In this document: in pieces, positions 5,469 to 26,709 of the stretch | Layout of the letters: the number at the start of each line of letters is the position of its first letter | How positions within the stretch are numbered: position 1 is the stretch's first letter | IMG/VR virus record: IMGVR_UViG_3300015199_000011 | Location: 1 to 33,574 of that record | Direction: 5' to 3' (one strand) | Length of the DNA: 33,574 nucleotides | Source: a virus | Position numbers and translations under genes: made by a program | Notes under the pieces: generated by a model | Seen by the model: the letters and a program-made list of their open reading frames with translations, nothing else | Database searches by the model: none | Told to the model about the DNA's origin: nothing

Positions 5469-5629
5469 GCTTGTTATTTCGTCTATGTCTCTTTTTTGGA
5501 CTAATGTACTATTTTCCTTGGGTATTCTTTACTTTGGCGATAACTACATATATACTTATATCTATAGTACAACATTCTGAGTATACCAAGTTTAAGAAAA
5601 GAAAGTTTTATGAACAGGAGGATAAATGA
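5465..5629 (+). CDS. Tiny membrane protein (54 aa)
   Basis: ATG at 5465 overlaps the previous stop (ATGA), and its own stop overlaps the ClpP-like start in the same way. The product has about 35 hydrophobic residues, with a Pro-Trp break at 18-19 that suggests two short membrane passes. A basic tail (K-F-K-K-R-K) follows, then an acidic end. The overlaps at both ends and the good hydrophobic profile make it convincing despite its size. Longer reading frames in this stretch are in another phase and cross the junction, so they are unlikely to be used. Function unknown. Confidence 0.65.
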   Translation: MSLLFRLCLFFGLMYYFPWVFFTLAITTYILISIVQHSEYTKFKKRKFYEQEDK

Positions 5630-6123
5630 GAACCATATATGCTATCGGGGAAGTAAATGATTCTATGGTCGAAAACATGGCGAAAGAGATAGACCGGCTA
5701 GTAGCAGAGAAACAAAAGCTAATAACGGTAAAACTGTCGTCAGAAGGTGGCTCAGCATACGATGCAATGGCTATCTATGCGTTAATTAGGAATACACCAG
5801 TGTCTGTAAATGTTGAAGCTTACGGAAAAGTTATGAGCGCAGCTATTCTTATTCTAGCAGCTGGCGACAAACGAAGTGCAGATAAGGATTGTATATTTAT
5901 GGTGCACGAAGGGTCAGTTTCTTCCGAAGGTCTTAATGTAAAGGATTTGAAGCGGGCTATTAAACAAGCAGGAAAAGAAGAAGTAATTTGGAATCAACTC
6001 TTAGCAGATAGGACCGGTATGTATTCGGGCATCTGGGAAACACTAGCAAAGAACTCTAGATATTTTTCTAGTGAAGAAGCATTATCTTGGGGATTATTAA
6101 CAGACATAAAGGCAGGAAAATGA
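5626..6123 (+). CDS. ClpP-like serine protease, candidate prohead protease
   Basis: 165 residues, SD CAGGAGGA. The ClpP/crotonase core is clear: S-S-E-G-G-S (38-43) forms the oxyanion strand, Ser71 in G-K-V-M-S-A-A-I is the nucleophile, and His94 in F-M-V-H-E is the base. The third residue is expected just before the conserved Y-F-S-S-E-E-A-L-S-W-G-L. There the protein reads A-K-N143-S144-R-Y, so the usual Asp is missing. Phage members of this fold mature the capsid by cutting scaffold or capsid proteins. Here it lies upstream of the terminase rather than next to the capsid gene, so a prohead role is an inference. The next gene overlaps by ATGA. Confidence 0.8.
   Translation: MRTIYAIGEVNDSMVENMAKEIDRLVAEKQKLITVKLSSEGGSAYDAMAIYALIRNTPVSVNVEAYGKVMSAAILILAAGDKRSADKDCIFMVHEGSVSSEGLNVKDLKRAIKQAGKEEVIWNQLLADRTGMYSGIWETLAKNSRYFSSEEALSWGLLTDIKAGK
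5719..5728 (+). repeat. CTAAWAACGG motif copy
   Basis: Exact CTAATAACGG, in the codon phase CTA-ATA-ACG-G inside the ClpP-like gene, 93 bases after its start. Confidence 0.6.
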
Positions 6124-6711: not shown

Positions 6712-6789
6712 GTGCAAGAGACGTTGGCATATTTAACTATAGTAGTTCTTCTCAGTGCCTTGTGTCTGGTGTACTTGTATGAACTATAA
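6712..6789 (+). CDS. Possible 25-aa membrane peptide coupled to terminase
   Basis: GTG at 6712 follows AAAGGA and directly succeeds the protease stop. It encodes 25 residues forming a single hydrophobic helix (L-A-Y-L-T-I-V-V-L-L-S-A-L-C-L-V). Its stop lies 11 bases inside the terminase gene. The terminase ATG has no good SD of its own, so translation of this peptide may supply coupling. It is too short for certainty. Confidence 0.35.
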   Translation: MQETLAYLTIVVLLSALCLVYLYEL

Positions 6790-8203
6790 ACTAGCGCAAC
6801 AAGAGTTAGAACGGCGCAAGAAGCCGTCCAAGTTTATATTATCTGCTTATCTATTTGATAAGCAATTGGCATTTGTACAAGACCCGAGTCCATTTAAGAT
6901 TGCTGTATGCAGTCGAAGAAGTGGTAAAACCGTATCCTGCGCCGCTCATCTTATTGATACTGCTATAAATAACAAAGGAGTAGTCTGTGTCTATATCACG
7001 CTCTCTCGCAACAATGCTAAGAAAATCGTCTGGAAAGAGCTCAAAGAGCTCAACAGGAAGTATCAATTACAGGGACAAGTTAATCAGACCGAGCTTACCC
7101 TTAGTTTTCCCAATGGGTCTGCTATTTATCTTTCCGGTGCCAAAGACGTATCCGAGATTGAAAAGTTTAGAGGACTCGCAATTAAATTATGTTATATTGA
7201 TGAAGGGCAAAGCTTTAGAGCTTACCTTGAAGCCCTTATCAATGATGTCATCGCGCCAGCGCTTATGGACTATGGTGGTACCTTATGCCTCATTGGTTCA
7301 CCCGGAGCCATACCTACTGGATTCTTCCATAGTTGTGCAAGTCCTGATTCCACCTGGTCAAAGCATTCGTGGACATATTTTGATAACCCGTTTATAGTAC
7401 AAAAGTCTGGACAAACCCACCAAGCACTTCTTGACCGAGAGCTCAAACGGCGAGGCGTCAGTATATTGGACCCTAGCATTCAACGGGAGTGGTATGGCAA
7501 GTGGGTCCTAGATTCTGATTCTTTACTGTTACGCTATAAGCCAGAAGTAAATAATTATACGTCTCTCCCAAGCAACTTGATATACATCTTAGGCATCGAT
7601 TTGGGCTTTAAGGATGCAGATGCTTTAGCTGTAATAGGCTGGTCTGAGAACGAGCCTACTACTTATTTAGTTGAGGAAGTTGTTACAGCTGGTCAAGGAC
7701 TGACTGAGCTAGTGCAGCAGATTCAAGCTTTGCAGAAGAAGTATAACATTAGTAAGATGGTAATAGATGAAGGCGGTTTAGGAAAGAAGTTAGCTGAAGA
7801 AATGCGCAGACGCCATCATATACCAGTTCATGCCGCGGAAAAACAGCGTAAGATGGAAAATATCGCATTTCTAAATGACGCTTTACGGACGGGCCGATTC
7901 AGAGCTAAAGCTGGAAGTAGATTTGCCCAAGATTCTTATCTCGTGGAGATTGACCGCGATAAAAGTACACCAGATAAGATTAAAGTGAGTAGCTCTTACC
8001 ACTCCGACATCATCGATGCGGTTTTGTATGCATTCAAGGAAAGCCCAGCATTTAGCTATACACCTCCTGTAGAGAAGCCTAAGCAGGGGTCTAAAGAGTA
8101 TTATGATAACCTTACTTCGGAACTGGAGCAACAAGCTGAAGACTTTTTTACAGCGCAAGAGCTTATTCAAAAGGATGACCCGTATGGTTTTGATGATAGG
8201 TAA
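6779..8203 (+). CDS. terL: Terminase large subunit
   Basis: 474 residues from ATG 6779. An in-frame GTG at 6755 would add an unlikely Cys-rich leader. The ATPase domain has Walker A C44-S-R-R-S-G-K-T51, Walker B L137-C-Y-I-D-E-G143 and the coupling motif L171-I-G-S-P-G. The RNase H-like nuclease has Asp274 in G-I-D-L-G-F-K-D, Asp330 in M-V-I-D-E-G-G, and Asp410/Asp413 in H-S-D-I-I-D-A. It cuts concatemers and drives DNA into the procapsid through the portal. The small subunit was not identified; the helical protein at 30755-31033 is a weak candidate. The portal is encoded about 1.3 kb downstream. Confidence 0.95.
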   Translation: MNYKLAQQELERRKKPSKFILSAYLFDKQLAFVQDPSPFKIAVCSRRSGKTVSCAAHLIDTAINNKGVVCVYITLSRNNAKKIVWKELKELNRKYQLQGQVNQTELTLSFPNGSAIYLSGAKDVSEIEKFRGLAIKLCYIDEGQSFRAYLEALINDVIAPALMDYGGTLCLIGSPGAIPTGFFHSCASPDSTWSKHSWTYFDNPFIVQKSGQTHQALLDRELKRRGVSILDPSIQREWYGKWVLDSDSLLLRYKPEVNNYTSLPSNLIYILGIDLGFKDADALAVIGWSENEPTTYLVEEVVTAGQGLTELVQQIQALQKKYNISKMVIDEGGLGKKLAEEMRRRHHIPVHAAEKQRKMENIAFLNDALRTGRFRAKAGSRFAQDSYLVEIDRDKSTPDKIKVSSSYHSDIIDAVLYAFKESPAFSYTPPVEKPKQGSKEYYDNLTSELEQQAEDFFTAQELIQKDDPYGFDDR

Positions 8204-9296: not shown

Positions 9297-9512
9297 ATGA
9301 AGATAGAAACTATTAAAGATATGTCAGCTCTCTTGGACTTGTGTCGCAAGAAGGGCGTAGAATCTATAGAAGTAGATGGCCTAAAGATTACTCTCGGCTC
9401 TGCTCCGACTCGAAAAGCTAAGAACGCCGGACCCGACACAATAGTAGCACCTGATGCTCTAACAGATGAACAAGCTATGTTCTGGTCTGCTGGCGGTCAG
9501 CTAAATGGCTAA
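9297..9512 (+). CDS. Small conserved-type protein upstream of portal
   Basis: 71 residues. The N-terminus reads as a helix-strand unit (I-K-D-M-S-A-L-L-D-L-C-R-K-K-G-V-E-S-I-E-V-D-G), followed by a proline-containing linker and a short T-D-E-Q-A-M-F-W-S C-terminal element. Small proteins of this build often precede the portal gene in related phages, but I cannot name a function. The stop lies 8 bases inside the portal gene. There is no strong SD; the upstream palindromes occupy the leader. Confidence 0.6.
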   Translation: MKIETIKDMSALLDLCRKKGVESIEVDGLKITLGSAPTRKAKNAGPDTIVAPDALTDEQAMFWSAGGQLNG

Positions 9513-11400
9513 GATTACTACTTCAGACCGAAGCAAGCGCGATACCATTGTTATTAAGACTAAGAAGCCTAATGCAAAGAATGAGGCTTATACCTGGTGG
9601 AATGCAGACAAGAATCAAATCAGTGAGCAGCTTCTTTCGACCGTTTCATTCCTCAAAGATAATCAGCAATACAGATACAGACAAGCCAGTATATATGCCC
9701 GCATGTACGGAAATGTGCCTCTTAACTCGTGGTCGGGTGCATCATTCAATAGAATGGCTATCACTAACTCTTTACCCGTTGACAGGCCGACGTTCAATGT
9801 GGTACAGTCATGCGTAGACACTCTCGTTGCAAAGATTTGTCAGAATAGGCCTAAGCCTATATTCTTAACAGACAACTCAGACTACAAGCAGCGCAACTTG
9901 GCTAAACAAATGAACCGTTTTATTAACGGTGAGTTCTACCAGGTAAAGGCATATGAAAAGATTGAAGCTATTTTTAAAGACGCTTCAGCTGCTATGGGCA
10001 CTGGATGCCTTCACGTTTATGAAACAGATGACAAGCGTGTCGGCGTTGAGCGTGTTATGGCGACAGAACTTTACGTGGACAACAACGACGCTTTTTATGG
10101 AGAACCCCGCTCCTTATACCGTCTCAAGCTCATCGATAGAAGTGTGCTGGCGGAACTCTTCCCTAAGGACCCGAGCAAGATTGCATCGGCTGAGGCTGGT
10201 TATCCTGATTCTTCAGGCGAAAGTCAAAGGACTGCATCCGACCAGGTAATGATTGCTGAGGCTTGGCATTTGCCCTCCTCAAAAGAGGCTAAGGACGGCC
10301 GTCACGTTATTACATGCACAAGCGGCACTCTCCTAGACGAAGAATATACAAAACAAGACTTCCCATTCGTATTTCTACACTACAGCCCACGTATGGTCGG
10401 CTTTTGGGCTCAGTCTTTAACAGAGCAAATCTCAGGGACACAAATTGAAATCAATAAGCTTCTATATACTATTTCCAAGTCTATCAGTCTTGTCGGCGTT
10501 CCTCGTGTATTCGTTGAAGATGGTTCTAAAGTTGTTAAAGCCCACCTCAATGACAACATTGGCGCTATCGTTACGTACCGAGGTACAAAGCCAGAGTATG
10601 AAGTTGCACCATGTGTACCACAGGAGCTGTATGCGCAACTTCAAAGGCTTATACAATATGCCTATCAGCAGTCTGGTGTGTCTGAGTTGTCAGCGTCTAG
10701 TGAGAAGCCTGCGGGGCTTGACAGTGGAGAAGCGATTAGAAGTTATGAAGACATACAAACTGATAGATTAGCAACACTTGCAAAGCGGATTGACCGACTT
10801 GCTATAGAATTGTCGTACAAGATTATTGACTGTGCAAAAGATATTGCAGAAAGAGACGGCTCTTATCAAACGGTATATCCTGACAAAGATGGCACCAGAG
10901 AGATTGACTTACCTGCTTCTAAGTTGCTTGATGACCCTTTCGTTATTCAATGCTATGATGAGTCTTCGCTTCCGAGAGACCCAGCAGGTAGAAAGCAAGC
11001 CATTGTTGACGATATGCAAGCGGGTATCATCTCGCCGCAAGAAGGTAGACGTCTACTTAACTACCCAGATTTAGAACAGGAAGATAAGCTTGCTATTGCT
11101 GGCGAAGAAAGAATATTAAAGCAATTAGACGATATCGTAGAAGAAGGTAAGTACACTCCTCCAGACCCATACACTCCGATACAGTTAGCAATGGAAAAAG
11201 TTACTCAATATTACAATTTATATGTAGCAGCTGGACTAGAAGAAAGTAAAGCAGAGATGCTTCGTACTTATCATTCTCAGCTCCTAGCACTTATGCAGGC
11301 AGCAATGCCTCCCGCACCACAACCTATGGCTGGTGCCCCACAGGCGGCGCCGCAACCGTTGCCCACTAACCCCATGATTCAAAATACGCCAGTCCAATAA
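9505..11400 (+). CDS. Portal protein
   Basis: 631 residues. Size, position after the terminase and before scaffold and capsid, and the pattern R-P-T-F-N-V-V-Q-S-C-V-D-T-L-V-A-K followed by N-R-P-K-P match podovirus-type portal proteins. The M-G-T-G-C-L-H-V-Y-E segment near residue 165 and the long helical region S-G-E-A-I-R-S-Y-E near residue 410 are typical of the family. The last 35 residues are rich in Pro, Ala and Gln. Twelve copies would form the ring at one capsid vertex through which the terminase pumps DNA, and to which the neck proteins attach. Confidence 0.88.
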   Translation: MAKITTSDRSKRDTIVIKTKKPNAKNEAYTWWNADKNQISEQLLSTVSFLKDNQQYRYRQASIYARMYGNVPLNSWSGASFNRMAITNSLPVDRPTFNVVQSCVDTLVAKICQNRPKPIFLTDNSDYKQRNLAKQMNRFINGEFYQVKAYEKIEAIFKDASAAMGTGCLHVYETDDKRVGVERVMATELYVDNNDAFYGEPRSLYRLKLIDRSVLAELFPKDPSKIASAEAGYPDSSGESQRTASDQVMIAEAWHLPSSKEAKDGRHVITCTSGTLLDEEYTKQDFPFVFLHYSPRMVGFWAQSLTEQISGTQIEINKLLYTISKSISLVGVPRVFVEDGSKVVKAHLNDNIGAIVTYRGTKPEYEVAPCVPQELYAQLQRLIQYAYQQSGVSELSASSEKPAGLDSGEAIRSYEDIQTDRLATLAKRIDRLAIELSYKIIDCAKDIAERDGSYQTVYPDKDGTREIDLPASKLLDDPFVIQCYDESSLPRDPAGRKQAIVDDMQAGIISPQEGRRLLNYPDLEQEDKLAIAGEERILKQLDDIVEEGKYTPPDPYTPIQLAMEKVTQYYNLYVAAGLEESKAEMLRTYHSQLLALMQAAMPPAPQPMAGAPQAAPQPLPTNPMIQNTPVQ

Positions 11401-12244: not shown

Positions 12245-13537
12245 ATGGCAGCAGTTTACGCAAGTGCGTCGAACCAAGTAGCAGCTCTAAAAGAGTTATA
12301 TACCGGCGACGATTATATGAAAGACCTAGTGTATAAGAAGAATCCAATGTTGGCTCTTATGCCTAAAGATGAATCCCCTTCCGGCTTTGCTGGTAAGTAT
12401 ATTCCAGTACCGCTAATCTACGGAACTCCTCAAGGCCGTAGTGCTGTATTTGCTACAGCTCAGTCTAACCAAACTCCTCCAAACTTAGTTTCTTTCTTCG
12501 TTTATCGCGTTAGCAACTATCAATTGGTATCTATCACTAACGAGTTGCTAGAAGCTACTAAAGATAATGCTGGTGCATTTATCGATGAAGCAAAGTTGAA
12601 CATGGACACAGGATTTCGCAATATCTCTAACGACTTAGCTTTAGACTTGTACGGCGCTGCAAACGGCGTTCGTGGTTCTCTAGTTAATGCTGCTATCAGC
12701 ACTGGTGTTATCACTCTTGATGATGCAGGTTCTGTTGTTAACTTCGAAGTAGGCATGGTATTGACTGCCTTTAGTATCTCTGGTTCGACTTATACTCAAT
12801 CAACTGGTGCTGCTCTTGGATATGTAATTGCCGTTAACCGTTCTGCTGGAACTATCACAGTTTCTGCTACTTCTGGCGGTTCTGCTGGAACTCCATCCAA
12901 CTGGTCACAATCATTTCCGTACCTCTCGGTACAAGGCGATAACCCGTTTGGTAGCTTAGCAGTTCAAACTGCATTCGTAAAAGTGAGTGGGTTGCAAGCA
13001 TGGCTTCCTTCTATCTCTCCTTCGGCTGCTGAAAGTTTCTGGGGCGTTGACCGCAGTCCAGACCCTACTAGACTTGCAGGTATTCGCTATAATGGTTCTT
13101 CGCAATCTATCGAAGAAGCTCTTATCGATGCTTCGTCTTTGGTAGCTCGTGAAGGTGGACAACCTGATATCTGTTTCATGAACTTTGCATCTTACTCTGC
13201 TCTTGAGAAATCTCTAGGTGCTAAAGTACAATATGTAGACGTGAAACATGAAGAAGCTGATATCGCTTTTGCTGGTATCAAGATTCACGCTCCTTATGGA
13301 CAAATCACAGTCATTCCTGACCGTAATTGCCCTGGACAAAGATGTTTCTTGCTTCAAATGGACACTTGGAAGTTGCGTTCTCTTGGACGTGCTCCTCACA
13401 TTCTTACTTACGGTCTGGAAGGACTAGAAGGTTTGCGTGTAGGCGCTGCTGATGCTTTGGAAATTCGAATTGGTTACTATGGTAACTTGATTTGTAATGC
13501 TCCAGGCTGGAATGCTACTGTTTCTTTGTCTGCTTAA
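12245..13537 (+). CDS. Major capsid protein (HK97-like fold)
   Basis: 430 residues, SD AAAAGGAT. The N-terminus Y-T-G-D-D-Y-M-K-D-L-V-Y-K-K-N-P-M-L-A-L-M and the later G-L-E-G-L-R-V-G-A-A-D-A-L-E-I-R-I segment are typical of one large phage MCP group. An inserted beta-rich segment (about residues 155-225, full of Gly, Ser and Thr) may form a surface domain. Codon use is biased to CT-ending codons, as expected for a highly expressed gene. Hairpins follow the stop at 13552-13643. Confidence 0.88.
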   Translation: MAAVYASASNQVAALKELYTGDDYMKDLVYKKNPMLALMPKDESPSGFAGKYIPVPLIYGTPQGRSAVFATAQSNQTPPNLVSFFVYRVSNYQLVSITNELLEATKDNAGAFIDEAKLNMDTGFRNISNDLALDLYGAANGVRGSLVNAAISTGVITLDDAGSVVNFEVGMVLTAFSISGSTYTQSTGAALGYVIAVNRSAGTITVSATSGGSAGTPSNWSQSFPYLSVQGDNPFGSLAVQTAFVKVSGLQAWLPSISPSAAESFWGVDRSPDPTRLAGIRYNGSSQSIEEALIDASSLVAREGGQPDICFMNFASYSALEKSLGAKVQYVDVKHEEADIAFAGIKIHAPYGQITVIPDRNCPGQRCFLLQMDTWKLRSLGRAPHILTYGLEGLEGLRVGAADALEIRIGYYGNLICNAPGWNATVSLSA

Positions 13538-13656: not shown

Positions 13657-14706
13657 ATGGCTAATCGCCGATTTCGCTCACAGTTTAATCAATCTTGGCT
13701 CGGACAACGGGCATCCCTATTTGCACAACTAGTGTTTAGCGGTAACGCTGGACAAACTTATATTGGAGGCGCAGCAGCTGCAGCACAAGCAGATGCACAA
13801 GCGGCTTACACTGCATTGGCAGCTCGCACTTTTACTCCTATTTCTGCAATATTAGATGGACAAACTCTTACTGCAGGTAATTACTCAGAAGCTTCTAGTA
13901 CTTTTCGATTGGCTACATCTGGTAATGGAACCTTGACTCTCAATGGTTCTGCAACTGATGTATTCGTCTTTAAAGCCGCGTCTACTTTAGTAACGGGTGC
14001 CGGTGGTACTCCTACGATAACTCTTACTGGCGGAGCACTCGCTAAAAACGTTTACTGGCTTGTAGGTTCTTCTGCAACCATTAACTCTGGAAATACTGGT
14101 GTATTCAATGGTAACATTATCGCCGTTACTAGCATCACAGATACTCTTGGCGGAACTGTAAATGGTTCTATGATAGCTCTCGGTGCGGCAGTAACTATGT
14201 CAGCTGCAACTATCAGCAATGCTCAGAATGCTCCTTTGCTTAACAGCGCTGGTTCTTTCGGCGTTCTCGGTGCATCTGCTGTAACTAGCACAGGTAGTAC
14301 TGTTATTACTGGTAACTTGGGTATTTATCCAGGAACATCTATCACTGGCTTCCCTCCTGGAACAGTTGTAGGCACCAGTGCAGTAGCTATATCGTCTTCT
14401 GCAGCTCAAGGTATTAACTATATTGCATCTACGGGCATCTTGTCAGTCACTAGATTGTCTGCTGGTCAATATAAGATAATCCTTAAAGATAACTACAACA
14501 AGCTATTTATGGCTAATCATGTAGTTGTCAATTCTACTGGAATTCCTACTGTAGACCAGATGGGCGTTCTTAGCTCCTCAAATGTTCAGTCTCTCGCAGC
14601 TCCTACTGTTATCGTGCAAATGTCCTCTTTAGGTGTCGCATCAGATTTAGCTTCTGGGGATATTCTAAACATTGAATTAGTATTGAATAACTCGGACCAG
14701 ATGTAA
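13657..14706 (+). CDS. Decoration-type virion protein with permuted DUF3494 (ice-binding-like) domain
   Basis: 349 residues. Residues 1-27 (M-A-N-R-R-F...L-V-F) and about 252-349 (I-N-Y-I-A-S-T-G-I-L-S-V-T-R...) read as one small phage surface protein. Between them lies a DUF3494 beta-solenoid in permuted order. Residues 38-190 hold what is normally its later part (A-Q-A-D-x3-A-Y, L-D-G-Q-T-L-T-A-G-N-Y, G-T-L-T-L, V-F-V-F, N-V-Y-W-L-V-G-S-S-A). Residues 197-236 hold what is normally its beginning (S-A-G-S-F-G-V-L, T-G-N-L-G-I-Y-P-G, T-G-F-P-P-G). It follows the capsid gene, so it probably sits on the capsid surface. Ice binding is known for some DUF3494 proteins; here the ligand is unknown. 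Confidence 0.75.
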   Translation: MANRRFRSQFNQSWLGQRASLFAQLVFSGNAGQTYIGGAAAAAQADAQAAYTALAARTFTPISAILDGQTLTAGNYSEASSTFRLATSGNGTLTLNGSATDVFVFKAASTLVTGAGGTPTITLTGGALAKNVYWLVGSSATINSGNTGVFNGNIIAVTSITDTLGGTVNGSMIALGAAVTMSAATISNAQNAPLLNSAGSFGVLGASAVTSTGSTVITGNLGIYPGTSITGFPPGTVVGTSAVAISSSAAQGINYIASTGILSVTRLSAGQYKIILKDNYNKLFMANHVVVNSTGIPTVDQMGVLSSSNVQSLAAPTVIVQMSSLGVASDLASGDILNIELVLNNSDQM

Positions 14707-14709
14707 TTT

Positions 14710-15699
14710 ATGGCAATACCCGCAACCCCTAGCAACGTAATAGTTCAGCAGGGGAACGGGGAAGTCTTAGTTTCCTGGGATATCGTTGCAGGTGCTACGT
14801 CTTACCCTGTCCTTCGCTCAACAGATGGCGTGACTTACGCCTCTCTAGGCTCTGCTGCAACTAACAGCTATTTAGATACTACTGTAGTATTAAATACTCT
14901 TTATTATTATCAAGTACGGTCTACCAACGGGTCTGGAACATCCTCTGCCTCCTCTGGTTTGCAAATCATCCCCACGACTGCGTCAGATATGTCTCTGGGT
15001 GCATTACGTTTGGCCGCACAGCAAAGAGCAGACAGAGTTAATAGTAACTTTGTAGGCACAGCAGAATGGAACAGTTATATTAATCAATCTTATTTTGAAT
15101 TATATGACCTGCTTGTGGATGCATATGAAGACTACTTCATGACGTCTACTCAGTTTACAACTAATGGAACAGATAACTACTTTACCCTTCCTACGGACTT
15201 CTACAAACTTCTGGGGGTCGACCTTGGTTTACAATCTTCTAACGGTCGTGTCACACTTAAGAAGTATGACTTCATTGAACGCAACCGGTATGTATTTCCA
15301 AATCTTAATGCCAATTTTCTCGGGGTGTTTAATCTTCGTTATCGCCTCATGGGAAACAGGTTAACATTCATCCCCACTCCCTCTGCAGCTCAAAATGTAA
15401 CTGTATGGTATATACCTAAACTCTCTGTCCTGCTTCAAGATACAGATGTAGCTAACGGCATCAGTGGTTGGACCGAGTATGTAATAGTGGATGCTGCTAT
15501 CAAGGCATTGCAAAAAGAAGAAAGTAATGAAGCCGTGCAAGTCCTATTTATCCAAAAGCAAGCTCTCATCAAACGAATAGAAGAAGCAGCAATGAACCGT
15601 GATGCTGGCCAAGGAGATACTATCTCGCCAACACGCGGCAATGGCGGATTTGGCTCTTACGGCGGTCCAGGTTTTGACGGCGGATTCGGTGGTTACTAA
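14710..15699 (+). CDS. Neck/connector protein with N-terminal fibronectin III domain
   Basis: 329 residues. Residues 4-88 form an FN3 domain (P-A-T-P-S-N-V, V-S-W-D, Y-P-V-L-R-S, Y-Y-Y-Q-V-R-S-T-N-G-S-G). From residue 93 comes the connector-like domain: a helix A-L-R-L-A-A-Q-Q-R-A-D, W-N-S-Y-I-N-Q-S-Y-F-E-L-Y-D, then L-P-T-D-F-Y-K-L-L-G-V-D and E-R-N-R-Y. This arrangement is shared by head-to-tail adaptor proteins of many environmental podoviruses. The tail is Gly/Phe-rich (G-G-F-G-S-Y-G-G). It would sit under the portal, with FN3 perhaps exposed for weak surface binding. No clear SD is visible. Confidence 0.7.
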   Translation: MAIPATPSNVIVQQGNGEVLVSWDIVAGATSYPVLRSTDGVTYASLGSAATNSYLDTTVVLNTLYYYQVRSTNGSGTSSASSGLQIIPTTASDMSLGALRLAAQQRADRVNSNFVGTAEWNSYINQSYFELYDLLVDAYEDYFMTSTQFTTNGTDNYFTLPTDFYKLLGVDLGLQSSNGRVTLKKYDFIERNRYVFPNLNANFLGVFNLRYRLMGNRLTFIPTPSAAQNVTVWYIPKLSVLLQDTDVANGISGWTEYVIVDAAIKALQKEESNEAVQVLFIQKQALIKRIEEAAMNRDAGQGDTISPTRGNGGFGSYGGPGFDGGFGGY

Positions 15700-25209: not shown

Positions 25210-26709
25210 ATGTCGACTACTTATATACGATACCCTTCACCAGTTGGCGCCACCATACAAGAATTTGCAAACTTTGCATCATTCCCGTCTAACCCTGCCA
25301 ATGGTATTCTAGCTTTAGACCTTAGTACTGATATATTATACGTTTATAGCGGAGGAACATGGGTTGTAGTAGGCGGTAGCACTGTGCCGCTGGGCATGGG
25401 TGCACTCGATGGCCAAGCAGCTTCGGCCAATGGTGCAACAATAACTGCAAACTTGTTATATTTGCAATCTGCGGATGCAACACACCCTGGACTTATAACC
25501 ACTGCGGCTCAAAACTTCACAGGACAAAAGACTTTTGCAACAGGACTAACTGGTACTTTAACCGGCGCTGCTTCCTTAAATATTCTTACGTCTGCGCGCG
25601 GTAATCTGACGGACGCTGGCACAGATGGTATAGTTATTACCGGAGGCACTAACGCTACTATCGGTAACGTATCTATTGCGCAAACACTAGCAGATGCAAC
25701 CCACAACGGATATCTGTCATCCACTGACTGGACAACATTCAACGGTAAACAGGCATCTGGAAGTTACATCACAGCTCTTACTGGCGATGCAACTGCATCA
25801 GGCCCAGGTTCTGTAGCATTAACATTTGCAACTGTAAATAGTAATGTTGGCTCATTTGGTTCTGCATCTAGTGTCGGGGCTTTTACAGTTAACGGCAAAG
25901 GGCTAGTTACCGCTGCTTCATCCACTTCAATACAAATCGCAGAATCACAAGTTACAAATTTAGTTTCAGATTTAGCAGGCAAGCAGCCTACTGGTAATTA
26001 TATCACTGCCTTAACTGGGGATGCAACTGCATCAGGACCTGGTTCAGCAGCGTTAACCTTAGCTACTGTCAATAGCAACGTTGGAACTTTTGCATCAGTA
26101 ACTGTAAATGGTAAAGGATTGGTAACAGCAGCTACGGCTTTATCCGGAGACTTAACTACTTCTTCAGCAGTGGCAACATTAGCAACTGTTAATAGTAATG
26201 TGGGTTCATTCGGCTCTACTAATGCTATTCCTGTTATAACTGTAAACGCCAAAGGGCTAATAACGGCGGTAACGACTGCATCGCCTACTTTGGGTTCTAC
26301 ATCTATGCACGTATCTACCGCCAGCCCAACTGGGGCATTAGACGGTACTGGCACTATGATATTTGGTTCCGGTGTGGCCTGGGACACTAACTCAGCATAT
26401 AACACAGGTACGGGTAAATACACAGCACCTACAACAGGGTACTATCGAGTAAATTTTAACTTAGGATTAACAGGTACATTTTTAGTGTCCTCAGTCGTAT
26501 TGTGGATAATTCGCAAAAATAGTTCTACATGGCAGTATAATCAAGTAGTACCACCAGCAGCGGGAGTATGCGTTGGTGGCATCAGTACTCTTGTGCAATT
26601 GACTGCAGGAGACACCATAGAACCTAGAATAAACACTAATGCTGCAAGTGCAGCAGTACAAGCAGACCCAAACTCTAACTGGTTCGAAGTTAACTTAATA
26701 GGAACATAA
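25210..26709 (+). CDS. Tail fibre with internal repeats and C1q-like tip
   Basis: 499 residues. An N-terminal part (residues 1-110) gives the attachment region. Imperfect repeats of about 75 and 45 residues follow at 187-236, 263-307 and 310-352, built on I-T-A-L-T-G-D-A-T-A-S-G-P-G-S, A-T-V-N-S-N-V-G and N-G-K-G-L-V-T-A; they likely form a trimeric stalk. Residues 365-499 match a C1q/TNF-like jelly-roll (Y-T-A-P-T-T-G-Y-Y-R-V-N-F near 404, then a final W-F-E-V-N-L-I-G). C1q-like tips are used by phage fibres to bind surface sugars or proteins. Host recognition is the likely role. Confidence 0.75.
   Translation: MSTTYIRYPSPVGATIQEFANFASFPSNPANGILALDLSTDILYVYSGGTWVVVGGSTVPLGMGALDGQAASANGATITANLLYLQSADATHPGLITTAAQNFTGQKTFATGLTGTLTGAASLNILTSARGNLTDAGTDGIVITGGTNATIGNVSIAQTLADATHNGYLSSTDWTTFNGKQASGSYITALTGDATASGPGSVALTFATVNSNVGSFGSASSVGAFTVNGKGLVTAASSTSIQIAESQVTNLVSDLAGKQPTGNYITALTGDATASGPGSAALTLATVNSNVGTFASVTVNGKGLVTAATALSGDLTTSSAVATLATVNSNVGSFGSTNAIPVITVNAKGLITAVTTASPTLGSTSMHVSTASPTGALDGTGTMIFGSGVAWDTNSAYNTGTGKYTAPTTGYYRVNFNLGLTGTFLVSSVVLWIIRKNSSTWQYNQVVPPAAGVCVGGISTLVQLTAGDTIEPRINTNAASAAVQADPNSNWFEVNLIGT
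26257..26266 (+). repeat. CTAAWAACGG motif copy
   Basis: Exact CTAATAACGG, extended to GCTAATAACGGCG, in the third repeat of the C1q-tipped fibre. Sister repeats encode G-L-V-T-A at this place with different codons, so the motif is not inherited from the repeat itself. Confidence 0.6.

Follow-up and report, generated by a model that had tools for sequence, protein, structure and literature searches.

The window, the whole 33,574-nucleotide stretch of IMG/VR virus record IMGVR_UViG_3300015199_000011 analyzed here, encodes a terminase large subunit, a portal protein, a major capsid protein (MCP), and an adaptor protein on the same strand (Table 1). The gene adjoining the MCP gene encodes a 349-amino-acid protein, and its ATG is preceded approximately 8 bases upstream by AAAAGGA, a good ribosome-binding site. 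Elsewhere in the window, positions 5626–6123, upstream of the terminase gene, encode a ClpP-like protease (PF00574, E 1.2e-19), and a 499-amino-acid protein encoded at 25210–26709 has a C1q-domain match near its end that falls below the cut-off (PF00386, E 7.8e-4). Residues 3–86 of the adaptor protein weakly matched Ig-like regions found in tail proteins and Hoc-like head proteins of phages.

Table 1. Positions of genes and of the parts of the small head protein in the window
Feature	Position	Strand	Evidence
Terminase large subunit	6755..8203	+	PF04466; phrog_2, E 1e-36
Portal protein, SU10/P22-type	9505..11400	+	PF23899, PF16510; phrog_156
Major capsid protein (SU10_MCP)	12245..13537	+	PF17236, E 6.8e-8; 143 relatives in IMG/VR
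Insert-bearing small head protein, MANR family, 349 aa	13657..14706	+	ORF; host-family HMM, 69.1 bits, C-terminal part
Host protein, N-terminal piece (residues 1–28), including host strand 1	13657..13740	+	By-eye alignment to insert-free homologues, e.g., L091
Inserted stretch (residues ~29–252), loop after host strand 1	13741..14412	+	Missing in homologues next to the same MCP gene; L091 model
DUF3494 helix and coils 2–6 (profile 53–207)	13765..14214	+	PF11999; pLDDT 96–98 over most
Junction ISNAQNAPL, canonical C-terminal end to canonical N-terminal start	14215..14238	+	xVNAQxxPL-type motif in 24/24 permuted copies
DUF3494 coil 1 and cap (profile 1–41), displaced C-terminally	14239..14388	+	PF11999, phmmer, bacterial-only profiles
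Host protein, C-terminal piece (residues ~253–349)	14413..14703	+	HMM of insert-free homologues, 69.1 bits
SU10-type adaptor protein, N-terminal Ig-like stretch	14710..15699	+	PF24175, E 1.9e-9; PHROG, residues 3–86

The 349-amino-acid protein holds a complete DUF3494 (PF11999, ice-binding-like) domain, a type found in antifreeze proteins of microbes, that is circularly permuted. PF11999 matched it in two stretches in swapped order, the first at window positions 13765–14214 (110.7 bits, E 1.2e-33) and the second, corresponding to the start of the profile, at 14263–14388 (28.0 bits, E 3.5e-8), and the total of 129.5 bits is above the curated cut-off of 28.7. The same swap was found by phmmer against PDB sequences, where residues 83–225 of the 6eio chain aligned with residues 40–185 of the query and chain residues 23–77 with query residues 188–242. 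Profiles built without the window sequence gave 225.1 and 71.7 bits for the two parts, compared with 7.4 and 12.5 for the best of 2000 protein shuffles, and profiles made exclusively from bacterial copies matched residues 43–183 (E 2.3e-35) and 195–239 (E 1.5e-18). Every DUF3494 element is present (the long helix, coils 2–6, and coil 1 with its cap), with the helix and coils 2–6 at residues ~40–190 and coil 1 at ~195–240. The canonical chain order, b1-helix-b2...b6, is found neither in this protein nor in 23 other viral copies, which therefore represent a permuted variant rather than canonical members of the family. The initial annotation had placed the motifs that normally open DUF3494 at residues 197–236, after the closing segments at 38–190; these coordinates proved correct in the PF11999, phmmer, and bacterial-profile alignments, and the order was permuted in every alignment, with no unbroken canonical arrangement in any of them.

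Forty phage copies were aligned as input for an AlphaFold2 model of the window protein. Residues 40–235 had pLDDT values mostly of 90–98, with a helix at 37–55 and strands up to residue 238 that include the displaced coil 1, so the structure prediction agrees with the proposal of a single permuted domain. All of the top 31 Foldseek matches in the PDB (31/31) were DUF3494 ice-binding structures, and VIA-align gave Z scores of 16–18 to DUF3494 ice-binding proteins over residues ~34–193. Uninterrupted beta-helices ranked lower (tapirin, 6n2b, Z 9.8 over residues 53–258; pectate lyase, 1ee6, Z 8.8 over 67–256); these alignments run through the displaced coil 1, which fits a continuous solenoid in the modeled protein. 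Two incomplete DUF3494 domains in tandem could in principle produce the swapped matches, and a tandem pair, the likely ancestor, is known from another sequence (L158), but this explanation is very improbable given that neither part was found a second time in the window protein by profile search, that the model is confidently one domain, and that the permuted unit recurs in 24 copies.

In crystal structures of canonical DUF3494 proteins, the coils stack in the spatial order b1-b6-b5-b4-b3-b2, with b1 adjoining b6, an arrangement described as unique to the family (PMC7277481, PMC7966756). Because b1 already adjoins b6 in these structures, the chain of the permutant is expected to form a solenoid without interruption, in which the joining of b6 to b1 follows the canonical spatial order. 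Coil 1 would pack on coil 6 as in the canonical crystals, and the chain ends would meet at the cap/helix end. On this reading, the permutation shifts the tether to that end while rendering the solenoid continuous, and the resulting helix-b2-b3-b4-b5-b6-b1 solenoid would be projected from the loop of the host protein by that end.

The protein that carries the insert was defined by comparison with its relatives at other capsid loci. A scan of IMG/VR with the MCP yielded 143 relatives, 80 of which were fetched. In many of these loci, the MCP gene is followed by one encoding a 121- to 145-amino-acid MANR protein without the insert. An HMM of the host family matched an ORF in 64 of the 80 MCP loci, mostly of 120–160 amino acids. 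These homologues bear out the earlier proposals that a permuted DUF3494 domain sits in a small head protein adjoining the major capsid gene and that it splits what is otherwise a single small virion protein, since the homologues beside the same MCP gene (~125 amino acids) lack it. The split itself was retained, and its borders, originally given as residues 1–27 and 252–349, were refined to those in Table 1. When insert-free and inserted host proteins were aligned jointly, MAFFT misplaced them, and these alignments were not used; the position of the insert, in the loop that follows strand 1 of the L091 model, comes from alignment by eye, and the HMM match to the N-terminal host piece alone was weak (4.5 bits). 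The host domain was modeled poorly in the full-length prediction because the alignment had no host rows, and it was predicted separately. The insert-free L091 protein was predicted to be an eight-strand beta-sandwich (pLDDT 82.9), resembling the tips of phage tailspikes and fibres, as well as H-type lectins, with modest scores, the best being Z 8.2 (phiAB6). Searches of the head protein against PHROG gave only negligible matches.

Other insertions were seen at this locus. In one relative (L132:4816–6423), the same head-protein loop holds an unrelated repetitive insert of ~370 amino acids, which suggests that the loop after strand 1 is a general insertion port. In the gene after the MCP of L066, L089, L090, and L100–L107, a different domain of ~90 amino acids occupies a later loop, and ORFs resembling, by eye, HNH or GIY-YIG endonucleases follow the MCP gene in L080, L088–L090, L093, L094, L097, and L099.

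Copies elsewhere were counted by IMG/VR scans and an HMM tally; including the window, 23 contigs of uncultivated phages together carry 24 distinct copies in permuted order. Twenty are in tail sheath proteins of two types (phrog_279), 15 of the 24 being in one sheath type; one is in L001, a baseplate wedge protein (phrog_6), two are in an unnamed protein of ~530 amino acids (L148 and L149), and one is in the head protein of the window. The permuted DUF3494 is thus an optional domain of sheath, baseplate wedge, and head proteins, with domain-free homologues known for the head and sheath proteins; in the 15-copy sheath type, these are 717–733 amino acids long compared with ~920–930 in most insert-carrying copies. 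Several copies can occur in one phage, as on a 166-kb contig with five PF11999 matches and a 171-kb contig with four, and two relatives with empty sheaths had zero PF11999 matches. The 171-kb contig (G003), which carries a permuted sheath copy, also has a 325-amino-acid ORF (L269) that combines a canonical DUF3494 domain with an N-terminal part resembling that of L148/L149.

At least 26 copies in canonical order were also found within phage proteins, including some that could be identified as virion proteins. One is in L057, which is homologous to the L001 baseplate protein with 53% identity and carries its canonical DUF3494 at another site. Permutation is therefore not required for insertion. 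The suggestion in the initial annotation that permutation enabled insertion, by bringing the ends of the domain together, was accordingly not supported, since coils 1 and 6 are already side by side in the canonical fold and the canonical copies are embedded in phage proteins all the same. The 40 bacterial loci fetched were canonical wherever both parts were detectable, save for one tandem artefact: L048 was considered as a permuted bacterial copy and rejected because it is a tandem pair in which the first coil went undetected. A tblastn search of 50,697 GenBank phage records with the protein and a hand-written consensus core gave no match, although the BLAST low-complexity filter may hide some. 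BFVD held no match other than giant-virus DUF3494 proteins, S-SKS1 (named in PMC11515562) had no PF11999 match at E <= 0.001, and our literature search found no paper linking DUF3494 to phage.

A 9- to 10-residue linker of the xVNAQxxPL type connects the core to coil 1 in all 24 permuted copies, and it looks like the C-terminal tail of a canonical domain running directly into a canonical N-terminal start. The permuted copies share this junction motif and the region of the break, and the outer break points vary by ~10 residues between host proteins. L158 contains two canonical DUF3494 domains in tandem, and the middle part of such a pair would be a permuted unit, comprising the core of copy 1, the linker, and coil 1 of copy 2; this unit could then have been shuffled as a cassette among virion proteins. 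From these sequences, tandem duplication followed by shuffling is the likely source of the permuted copies. Most virion copies cluster apart from the bacterial ones (SH-aLRT 89). In a tree of 50 viral copies, permuted and canonical forms are mixed, with five changes on the best tree, and a single clade of permuted copies was not rejected (AU p 0.058). The permutation may have arisen repeatedly, but a single permutation event followed by recombination is the simplest explanation and is favoured by the common junction.

We consider it most likely that the permuted DUF3494 is a surface-displayed binding module, because it occupies loops of sheath, head, and baseplate proteins, is optional, occurs in multiple copies, has a host protein of the fold described above, and carries a conserved S-x-T-x-(T/N/S) pattern. 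This pattern forms a face on coils 4, 5, 6, and 1 that is near-invariant in the phage copies and less regular in the bacterial set; such a regular Thr/Ser/Asn face could be structural or due to recent common descent. A many-copy surface module would hold virions weakly and multivalently to a repetitive surface before receptor recognition, the candidate surfaces being a cell-envelope or matrix glycan, or ice. Weak surface adhesion is also the role proposed for the Ig-like domains of phages. Taken as a whole, the explanation that a permuted DUF3494 solenoid, derived from a tandem pair as a cassette, sits in a head-protein loop as a virion-surface binding module is somewhat probable. That the domain is a mobile display cassette of tailed phages, exchanged between head, sheath, and baseplate proteins and sticking whole virions to ice or another ordered surface, is a more tentative and less probable proposal.

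The domain might still bind ice, so that virions would cling to ice or brine channels where hosts concentrate, or would escape freeze damage. Its Z scores of 16–18 are to proven ice-binding proteins and the S-x-T-x-(T/N/S) ladder is near-invariant in the phage copies; however, ice binding is not universal within the DUF3494 family, and Ser, Gly, or Thr in place of Ala in one face column has been tied to possibly weaker ice binding (PMC12337378), which leaves this reading doubtful. It is likewise unlikely that the insert has a passive structural role, as a decoration or spacer by which the virion is stabilised or shielded, with no specific ligand. Insertion at subunit loops of high-copy proteins such as the sheath would suit a spacer, as would the unrelated repeat insert in the head-protein loop of L132, but the exposed-looking Thr/Ser/Asn columns are strongly conserved, and stability alone would not call for the several copies that one phage can carry in different proteins. 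An auxiliary gene that guards the bacterial host from freezing, which membership of PF11999 might bring to mind, is highly implausible here, since the domain is nested in virion proteins that have domain-free homologues at the same locus and there is no separate secreted protein.

The domain adds, besides Ig-like domains, a second widespread type of module common to unrelated phage virion proteins. DUF3494 is noted for its odd, discontinuous coil order, and a natural permutant removes the break; with permuted and canonical sister copies in related phages, the evolution of a fold by permutation becomes directly testable. A further caution is that, before a PF11999 match from a viral metagenome is called a host cryoprotection gene, it should be asked whether the match lies inside a virion protein.

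The window domain has the helix and triangular solenoid of the DUF3494 proteins EfcIBP (6eio), AnpIBP (7bwx), FfIBP (4nu2), and SfIBP_1 (6bg8) and belongs to the same sequence family, with about 30–40% identity over the core at the Z scores given above. Unlike these four proteins, it is permuted and nested in a virion protein, and it is at most a candidate ice binder. Ig-like domains of tailed-phage virions are optional in several unrelated virion proteins that have domain-free homologues, and they are proposed to act in weak adhesion. The permuted DUF3494 shares this optional distribution, whereas its fold is a beta-solenoid. The insert-free host protein resembles phiAB6 (5jsd), AP22 (4mtm), and Helix pomatia agglutinin (2ccv) with Z scores of 8.2, 6.2, and 4.9, respectively, but, in contrast to tailspike or fibre tips and lectins, it is encoded between the capsid and adaptor genes. 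An earlier study of viral contigs from the Arctic took their PF11999 genes to be auxiliary ones that serve cryoprotection of the host (PMC11515562). The copies described here belong to the same Pfam family and also occur in viruses, but they are embedded in virion proteins and often permuted, and this nesting means that the host-cryoprotection reading does not fit them.
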